DNA of 64,000 bases from Bordetella parapertussis (lineage in GTDB: Bacteria; Pseudomonadota; Gammaproteobacteria; Burkholderiales; SG8-39), in assembly GCA_945862265.1 (NCBI GenBank), contig CAMAXP010000003.1:62001-126000 (forward strand). Direction: 5' to 3'. Each line of letters opens with the position of its first letter. Position 1 is the stretch's first letter. Shown in pieces: positions 41,568 through 43,487 of the stretch. The notes below the pieces were generated by a model, which searched no databases, was not told where the DNA came from, and saw only the letters and a list, made by a program, of their open reading frames with translations. The translations under genes and the position numbers were made by a program.

Positions 41568-41616
41568 CCGGGCGGGTTGACAGGGACACCGGGGCCGCGT
41601 AACTTTGCGGCTCGCT

Positions 41617-41672
41617 AGACGCGCCGATTTGAAGTTCAGCTTGCGGGCGCGCAACAAATACCGCTAAAGAGA
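41617..41672 (+). ncRNA. SAM-II-like (metA motif) riboswitch aptamer upstream of metX
   Basis: The layout matches the SAM-II H-type pseudoknot. P1 is CGCGCC (41620-41625) with GGCGCG (41646-41651). GATTT follows the 5' arm of P1 (41626-41630). The 3' side has CAAATA (41655-41660) and GCTAAA (41663-41668), as in the SAM-II consensus. It lies directly upstream of metX, the usual SAM-II target, and is followed by a terminator. The loop of P1 contains GTTCAGCTT, complementary to a segment inside the terminator, which suggests an antiterminator. The call rests on motif matching by eye. Confidence 0.62.
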
Positions 41673-41681
41673 CAGGTCCGC

Positions 41682-41720
41682 AAAACCCGTTCTCGCGCAA
41701 AGCTGAACGGGTTTTTGTTT
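41682..41720 (+). terminator. Terminator of the metX leader with competing antiterminator
   Basis: AAAACCCGTT (41682-41691) and AACGGGTTTT (41706-41715) form a 10-bp stem followed by TGTTTT. The loop and 3' arm include AAGCTGAAC (41700-41708), which can instead pair with GTTCAGCTT at 41634-41642 inside the aptamer. The two folds exclude each other: SAM-bound aptamer would leave the terminator free to form. Confidence 0.72.
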
Positions 41721-41732
41721 TCTGGGGCCAGA

Positions 41733-42872
41733 GTGGGCGCACCACAGACACCGCCGGGATCCGTAGGCATCGTGACACCGCAGAAGGCGGGCTTCACGCA
41801 GCCACTTGCGCTTACGTGCGGCGTGACCCTGCCCGGGTTCGAACTGGCCTACGAAACCTACGGGAAGCTGAATGCGGCACGCTCCAACGCCGTGCTGGTC
41901 CCCCATGCGCTCAACGCCTCGCACCACGTGGCGGGCGTGTACGCCGATGCGCCGGACAACGTCGGCTGGTGGGACAACATGGTGGGCCCCGGCAAGCCGC
42001 TCGACACCGACCGGTTCTTCGTCGTGGGGGTGAACAACCTCGGCGGATGCCACGGGTCCAGCGGGCCGATGAGCCCCAACCCGGCCACCGGCAAGCCCTG
42101 GGGAGGCGACTTCCCGGTGGTGACGGTCGAGGACTGGGTCAATGCCCAGGCGCATCTGGCGGACCACCTCGGGATCGAAACCTTTGCGGCAGTCATGGGC
42201 GGCAGCCTCGGTGCGATGCAGTCCCTGCAGTGGACGCTGTCCTTCCCCGACCGCATCCGCCACGCGCTGGTGGTCGCCGCGGCGCCGAAGCTTTCGGCGC
42301 AGAACATCGCCTTCAACGAGGTCGCCCGGCAGGCGATCACCACCGACCCCGAGTTCCACGGGGGGCATTACTACGAGCACGGCGTGGTGCCGCGTACCGG
42401 CCTGCGGCTTGCCCGCATGCTGGGCCACATCACCTACCTGTCCGACGACGCGATGATGGAGAAGTTCGGCCGGACCCTGCGCAGCGGGGCGCTGGGCTTC
42501 AACTTCGACATCGACTTCGAGATCGAGTCGTACCTGCGCTACCAGGGCGACAAGTTCTCGACCTACTTCGATGCGAACACCTATCTGCGCATCACCAAGG
42601 CGCTCGACTACTTCGACCCGGCTGCGGACTTCGGCGGCGACCTGTCGGCGGCGATGGCCCGCGCCAAGGCGGCGTTCCTGGTGATCTCGTTCACCTCCGA
42701 CTGGCGGTTTGCGCCGTCAAGATCGCGCGAAATCGTGCGCGCGCTGCTCGACAACCGGCGCGTGGTGTCCTATCTCGAGATCGACGCCCCCCACGGCCAT
42801 GATGCGTTCCTGATGGAAGACGAGCGCTATATGAACGCCGTGCGGGCCTACTTCGGGAACATCGAGCTATGA
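41733..42872 (+). CDS. metX: Homoserine O-acyltransferase
   Basis: A 379-residue alpha/beta hydrolase-fold transferase that acylates homoserine in methionine synthesis. The triad is Ser in MGGSLGAMQ, Asp in [10 protein letters not shown] and His in PHGHDAFL. The N-terminal block [12 protein letters not shown] fits MetX. GTG at 41733 keeps this block; TTG at 41715 lies within the terminator hairpin and is unlikely. Whether acetyl-CoA or succinyl-CoA is used cannot be decided by eye; many betaproteobacterial MetX proteins prefer succinyl-CoA. It is followed by metW after nine bases and controlled by the leader riboswitch. Confidence 0.93.
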
Positions 42873-42881
42873 CGCGCATTT

Positions 42882-43487
42882 ATGACTGACGCGGATCGCG
42901 CGCTGCTCGCCAGCCGTCCAGACCTCGCCACCATCGCGCAATGGGTGGCGCCGAATGCGCGCGTGCTGGATCTCGGCTGCGGCGACGGCATGCTGCTGCG
43001 CTACCTGTGGAAGGAGCGAGGCTCGCACGGTTACGGGGTGGAGATCGACGACGCGAAAGTCGGGGCCTCGGTCCGGAACGACGTCAACGTGCTGCAGATG
43101 GATCTCGAAAGCGGACTGTCGGCCTTCGGCGACGGGTCGTTCGACTACGTGATCCTCTCGCAGACGCTGCAGGCCATGCGCCACACCGAGGACATCATGC
43201 GCGAGATGGTGCGCGTGGGACGCGAGGCGATCGTGAGCTTCCCGAACTTCGGCCACTGGGCTTCGCGCCTGCAGGTGGTGAAGGGGCGCATGCCGGTGTC
43301 CGAAAGTTTGCCGCATGCGTGGTACAACACGCCGAACCTGCACCTGTGCACGATCGCCGACTTCGAGGACCTTGCGCGGAGAATCGGCCTGAACATCGAG
43401 GAACGGGTGGTGCTGCACGAGGGTGAGGCCGTGTCCTTCCTGCCCAACCTCTTCGGTAGCCTGGCGATTTACCGCTGCGCCGCCTGA
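42882..43487 (+). CDS. metW: Methionine biosynthesis protein MetW
   Basis: A 201-residue protein with a class I methyltransferase fold. The SAM-type motif is VLDLGCGDGMLLRYL, and the MetW-specific blocks are QTLQAMRHTEDIM, SFPNFGHWASRL and LPHAWYNTPNLHLCTIADF. MetW accompanies MetX and is needed for full MetX activity in several Proteobacteria, probably through a complex. A second, degraded metW fragment occurs near 48.0-48.1 kb. Confidence 0.94.
   Translation: MTDADRALLASRPDLATIAQWVAPNARVLDLGCGDGMLLRYLWKERGSHGYGVEIDDAKVGASVRNDVNVLQMDLESGLSAFGDGSFDYVILSQTLQAMRHTEDIMREMVRVGREAIVSFPNFGHWASRLQVVKGRMPVSESLPHAWYNTPNLHLCTIADFEDLARRIGLNIEERVVLHEGEAVSFLPNLFGSLAIYRCAA

Follow-up and report, generated by a model that had tools for sequence, protein, structure and literature searches.

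The metX leader of Bordetella parapertussis contains a SAM-II riboswitch, and we propose that, when S-adenosylmethionine (SAM) is plentiful, this ends transcription prematurely and so represses metXW. The antiterminator in this scheme would be L1, a strand of the ligand-binding aptamer itself. We identified the leader in a window of 64,000 nucleotides (contig CAMAXP010000003.1, positions 62,001 to 126,000), to which all coordinates refer. The leader occupies positions 41606-41732 of the forward strand, and contains a SAM-II aptamer, followed by an intrinsic terminator and a T-rich tract ending at 41721. We put the probability of the whole mechanism at roughly 70%, and the L1 antiterminator is the best-supported expression platform.

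The proposed switch works as follows. With SAM bound, the P2 helix would hold L1 along with the ligand and GCUAAA. This would leave the terminator hairpin to fold freely, and transcription would stop near positions 41716-41721. Without SAM, L1 would be free, and could capture CGCAAAGCUGAAC as polymerase exposes the terminator loop, while the 3' arm is still unfinished. With the upper part of the terminator stem lost, metXW would be transcribed. Note that P1 may remain paired during antitermination, because the helix between L1 and the terminator shares the pseudoknot topology of P2. In short, a single strand would serve in turn the ligand-binding helix and the antiterminator.

Proposed pairing between L1 and the terminator

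The intrinsic terminator (41682-41715) has an 11 bp stem, with a folding energy of -17.4 kcal/mol, a loop of 12 nt and a T tract. Its 5' arm, AAAACCCGTTC, spans 41682-41692 and its 3' arm, GAACGGGTTTT, spans 41705-41715; the stem is 89.3% paired in relatives. The T-rich tract, TTTTTGTTTT (41712-41721), contains T tracts at 41712-41716 and 41718-41721. Hence, the stem and T-run of a preliminary description of this DNA are present, although the stem had been given as 10 bp. A simple terminator scan, allowing only loops of 3-8 nt, found no terminator in the leader because the loop is larger than this.

L1 (GTTCAGCTTGCG, 41634-41645) forms the 5' strand of P2 and, putatively, the 5' strand of the antiterminator. 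The candidate 3' strand, CGCAAAGCTGAAC (41696-41708), lies in the terminator loop and the top of the 3' arm, and was assigned from pairing in relatives and low entropy. Perfect complementarity between the aptamer loop and the terminator had been claimed, and this is correct; GTTCAGCTT (41634-41642) is the exact reverse complement of AAGCTGAAC (41700-41708), giving 9 bp. The pairing extends by 3 bp beyond a bulged A at 41699 (GCG at 41643-41645 with CGC at 41696-41698). Matches of 9 bp arose in 6 of 20,000 shuffles when the terminator loop and 3' arm were compared with L1, and in 20 of 3,000 when the whole leader was allowed. Taken from the window sequence alone, the complementarity is suggestive. 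It becomes firm because relatives keep the pairing. The alternative structures are mutually exclusive, since L1 is shared with P2, and positions 41705-41708 are shared with the terminator. Once AAGCTGAAC is taken, the hairpin falls from -17.4 to -5.3 kcal/mol, a loss of about 12.

For comparison we used 53 relatives, which are metX or metH leaders of the GAGA type. The 12 pairs between L1 and the antiterminator strand hold in 93.5% of cases across these leaders, compared with 25-35% in slid registers. Entropy in the half of the terminator loop that pairs (41695-41703, without an insertion at 41699) is 0.14-0.77 bits, against 1.1-1.9 bits for the linker at 41674-41685. These results support the earlier suggestion that the aptamer loop may itself be the antiterminator strand. 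Consistent with this, 41 of 114 distinct betaproteobacterial terminators contain AAGCTG (0.7 expected) and 31 contain GCAAGC (0.9 expected). The latter motif was not enriched in alphaproteobacterial platforms. Overall, matching L1 to its own terminator also gives better pairing than matching it to permuted partners (0/5000 permutations, or 1/2000 with one element per L1, both uncorrected for relatedness).

Some of the changes between relatives are coupled. In Cupriavidus, the 12-pair match is kept despite several such changes (GACUGG in L1 with CCGGUC in the terminator), and L031 and L049 have matched insertions. Variants of the shared GAAC, namely GGAC and GAGC, retain U-G pairs with L1. When the invariant CTTGC was left out, permuted partners matched the true ones in 1/5000 cases for all betaproteobacterial elements, with permutations uncorrected for relatedness.

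Several observations weigh against this mechanism. First, the lower terminator stem (ACCCG/CGGGU) is still available after L1 captures GAAC and so antitermination might be incomplete. Second, the terminator fold reaches -31.8 kcal/mol, whereas the antiterminator forced into a nested fold reaches only -25.0, a deficit of 6.8. Hence, the mechanism needs either a pseudoknot in which P1 persists or kinetic capture as transcription proceeds. Third, for metX copies alone, the permutation result without CTTGC was 674/5000, which is not significant and is likewise uncorrected for relatedness. Part of the signal must then come from differences between gene classes. Covariation of the antiterminator pair, whose absence from relatives the preliminary description had listed among its refuting conditions, is thus hinted at across betaproteobacterial elements and in the coupled changes above, and a strict claim for metX copies was dropped. 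Sequence conservation, more than compensatory change, carries most weight, and true compensation is sparse. Fourth, L1 pairing is absent from the metZ copies and several lineages. Given this, and ATTGC-type leaders that also lack the pairing, we dropped the idea that an L1 antiterminator is general in SAM-II. Finally, the score of the aptamer for the SAM-II family is just 1 bit above the cut-off. Because the score is marginal, relatives were examined.

Identity of the aptamer and its setting

A covariance-model search, as suggested in the preliminary description, matched positions 41611-41688 to the Rfam SAM_alpha (SAM-II) family RF00521, with 37.0 bits (gathering score 36, E 9.9e-5). The match is directly upstream of metXW. 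P1 is formed by CGCGCC (41620-41625) and GGCGCG (41646-41651), as placed by the covariance model and pairing in relatives. Across the 53 relatives it is 96.9% paired, with the inner five pairs fixed and the outer one variable. GATTT, the L1 triplex strand of the SAM-II core, follows at 41626-41630 and is invariant in 53/53 relatives. The linker CAAATA (41655-41660), in which AAAT is near-invariant, precedes the P2 3' strand, GCTAAAGAGAC (41663-41673). The latter includes GCTAAA (41663-41668) of the SAM site and has an invariant core that shows covariation around it. Thus, the P1 arms, GATTT, CAAATA and GCTAAA are all present as previously described. CAAATA, however, is a variant conserved in betaproteobacteria, where the Rfam consensus has cAAgUC.

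Support for P2 comes from the pair 41636-41672, which is standard (UA, CG or AU) in 137 of 176 distinct elements, compared with at most 96 in 1000 shuffles. The combined P1 and P2 covariation score, calculated for 26 diverse elements, was reached by 0/500 shuffles. Nucleotides of the SAM site, in GATTT, TTGC and GCTAAA, are invariant in the 53 relatives; that they contact SAM is taken from the literature. We conclude that the window element is almost certainly a SAM-II riboswitch, and infer that it binds SAM. Note that an initial P2 reading, with CUUG paired to the CAAATA region, failed; the correct helix pairs CUUGC with GCUAAA. SAM-V was also considered. Its pseudoknot core and SAM site are almost identical (PMC6061858), but the window element has a terminator instead, and lacks a sequestered ribosome site. 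This identity was dropped, and no SAM-V family match was found in the loci scanned with Rfam.

The window element shares with SAM-II (RF00521; Corbino 2005, PMC1273637) the P1 and P2 pseudoknot, GATTT, CTTGC and GCTAAA. Methionine genes downstream, a terminator after the aptamer and a promoter just upstream of P1 are also in common. Conversely, the betaproteobacterial form has a near-fixed GCGCC/GGCGC in P1, rather than GTGG/CCAC, a short P2b and scores near the cut-off. The fixed P1 sequence (41621-41625 and 41646-41650, in 53/53 relatives) is curious, since pairing alone should matter.

The predicted promoter has a -35 box, TTGACA, at 41577-41582 and, after a 17 nt spacer, a -10 box, TAACTT, at 41600-41605. 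Transcription would start at about position 41612. Of 166 related elements, 67 have the pattern TTGACn-N15-19-TAnnnT upstream, with 0.2 expected. Downstream, genes were identified using NCBIfam models. As previously described, metX follows the element (41733-42872, forward strand; NF047916, 665.6 bits, cut-off 560). Its start is most likely the GTG at 41733, judged by position in relatives such as L017. The best MetX model carries the NCBI name homoserine O-succinyltransferase, and the acyl-donor label is the name of the model alone. The second gene of the operon is metW (42882-43487, forward strand; TIGR02081, 252.2 bits, cut-off 189.5).

Alternative explanations for the complementarity

The alternative that fares best assigns antitermination to the other P2 strand. 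Here, the partner of GCUAAAGAGAC would be GUUCUC, in the 5' arm and loop of the terminator, and ligand binding would free the 5' arm. Its support comes from other lineages. In alphaproteobacteria, and some betaproteobacteria, the P2 3' strand fits its own terminator 5' arm and loop (0/2000 permuted). Similarly, terminators of gammaproteobacterial loci L275 and L282 hold a 9-10 nt complement of GCTAAACAG, and TTTAGC is found in 9 of 114 betaproteobacterial terminators (0.6 expected). In the window, however, the exact match of the P2 3' strand is only 4 nt (GAGA/TCTC), which 78% of shuffles reach, while that of L1 is 9 nt, with a shuffle fraction of 0.00. Hence, we consider this arrangement unlikely here. 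Note that in the alphaproteobacterial sample, which includes a few gamma- and betaproteobacteria, L1 also fits the terminator 3' arm (0/2000 with one per L1). Since the P2 strands are mutually complementary, and the terminator arms are too, the signals from L1 and the P2 3' strand are not independent.

Marginally less probable again is that the L1 complement is a by-product. The terminator would then be constitutive, or tuned by promoter strength, and SAM would at most affect RNA stability, giving a short small RNA as in the Sinorhizobium meliloti metA leader. The terminator in that SAM-II leader is not predicted to respond to SAM, and no antiterminator could be predicted for it (PMC9373788). 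The sparse compensatory change also fits. Yet, different genera share the sequence of the terminator loop, and the linker varies freely. Terminator loops would have no other reason to be conserved, which counts against a by-product.

A further reading, of a SAM-II relative whose ligand binding has changed or been lost, is very improbable. While 37.0 bits, against a cut-off of 36, is far under the 77-90 bits of alphaproteobacterial members, which are the top RF00521 scores, and P2b is short, the crystallised metX SAM-II RNA also has a 2-bp 3' helix (PMC6061858). Furthermore, GATTT, CTTGC and GCTAAA show little or no variation and the downstream genes are methionine genes. A ribosome-mediated leader-peptide attenuator for methionine can be dismissed because, although a 12-codon TTG-started frame overlaps L1 (TTG AAG TTC AGC TTG CGG GCG CGC AAC AAA TAC CGC TAA), it lacks Met codons beyond the start, the leader has no ATG or GTG, and the RNA matches a riboswitch family.

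Related elements and known systems

In the source family, 66 of 98 genomes have RF00521 matches (E <= 0.01), before metX, metZ or metH. Across the phylum, matches at E <= 1e-4 occur in 79 of 399 genomes, mostly in groups scoring far higher. We collected 167 elements by motif and metX lies within 500 nt downstream of 87. Many others precede MetZ- or MetH-like sequences, where the names are our reading of translations. A model built from the elements collected, R1, finds metX leaders in Ralstonia, Cupriavidus, Paraburkholderia, Caballeronia, Herbaspirillum and Undibacterium. Rfam SAM_alpha gives no match on several of these leaders.

The same genome has a second RF00521 match, slightly below threshold, and this copy (L002 1501-1800, contig C75, 17 kb) has its own terminator. 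After it is another SAM-II-like pseudoknot, with a GGGG/CCCC P1, an inserted hairpin and GCTAAAGAGGAGG ahead of an ATG. This is upstream of an unknown open reading frame (ORF), and no methionine gene was seen near. Other genomes of the source family have arrays of two to four SAM-II-like elements (L049, L139, L043 and L048), and the ORFs downstream are not obvious methionine genes. Locus L177 has SAM-I/IV and SAM-II-type aptamers in tandem (474-578 and 601-679), a combination reported previously (PMC9481103). At L201 (9-111 and 601-673), SAM-I/IV is near a SAM-II-like aptamer. The latter scores below the cut-off, has GAGGAG and is directly upstream of a MetK-like ORF.

Other platforms differ from that in the window. 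In the metZ-linked copies (L011, L132 and L148, for example), L1 is different (GAGCCAC...), GCGTGCC is found downstream and the terminator loops are short and contain CGCTT, whose partner may instead be AAGCG in the 3' strand of P2. Undibacterium, Trinickia and others have a complement of GGCTAAA, 7-9 nt long, downstream. In Caballeronia and Undibacterium (L126 1840-2010 and L087), this complement, TTTAGCC, adjoins the complement of a likely Shine-Dalgarno sequence; in Caballeronia, by our own reading of the sequence, it lies beside GGCGG ahead of the start. The proximity to the Shine-Dalgarno complement suggests a translational version of the switch.

The SAM-II class itself is known, and SAM-II RNAs are mostly associated with terminators in alpha- and betaproteobacteria. 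As of 2007, the mechanism coupling the two had not been experimentally established (Barrick and Breaker, PMC2258182). Corbino 2005 (PMC1273637) noted terminators, and the word antiterminator is absent from that paper. The most-studied crystallised SAM-II RNA is a rare translational member (PMC6061858). For S. meliloti metZ, the aptamer is predicted to form a terminator on SAM binding, and a terminated RNA of ~100 nt is more abundant in rich medium (Scheuer 2022, PMC9373788). That switch is alphaproteobacterial, and in our alphaproteobacterial sample the other P2 strand is the favoured antiterminator. In the literature searched, with subscription journals outside coverage, the way in which sensor and terminator are wired here is not an established one.

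Leyn 2014 (PMC4239095) presented as new a betaproteobacterial ‘metXZ’ element that combines a pseudoknot and an alternative stem with a terminator, and raised an antiterminator as a speculation. Like the window element, it is upstream of metX or metZ in betaproteobacteria and has a terminator and two conformations, including a pseudoknot. Taxa found by model R1 overlap those of metXZ. Hence, on the basis of genes, taxa and layout, the window element is very probably metXZ. Leyn 2014 stated that SAM_alpha is limited to Rhizobiales and Rhodobacterales and did not equate metXZ with SAM-II. The link may have been missed because Rfam SAM_alpha fails on several such leaders. A third description is probably RF02424 (Bp2_287, ‘Burkholderia sRNA’), which matches antisense to the SAM-II metX or metZ leader in 6/6 loci (L289-L294; also L008, G011:C6:11834-11963). 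The RF02424 model is probably the reverse complement of the SAM-II riboswitch leader; it covers the same leader as the window-type element, but on the opposite strand. Its source paper called Bp2_287 a likely cis-acting element of methionine metabolism (PMC3521395). We found no paper linking SAM-II, metXZ and RF02424; a search for metXZ, riboswitch and SAM gave only Leyn, again with subscription journals outside coverage.

A general rule for SAM-II can be offered, tentatively and at slightly less than even odds. The platform would complement one P2 strand. For the betaproteobacterial family studied here this would be L1 (CAGCUUGC), while alphaproteobacteria, some gammaproteobacteria and other betaproteobacteria would use the 3' strand, in some of them GCUAAA itself. 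Lineages would have switched strand and kept the logic, with metXZ and RF02424 being the same riboswitch.

The window leader is ordinary in kind and useful in detail, with a well-supported, putative expression platform. SAM-II is among the best-studied riboswitch aptamers, and this leader offers a compact, testable case of its coupling to a terminator. Tying metXZ and RF02424 to SAM-II would give a ligand to an orphan betaproteobacterial element across Burkholderiales.
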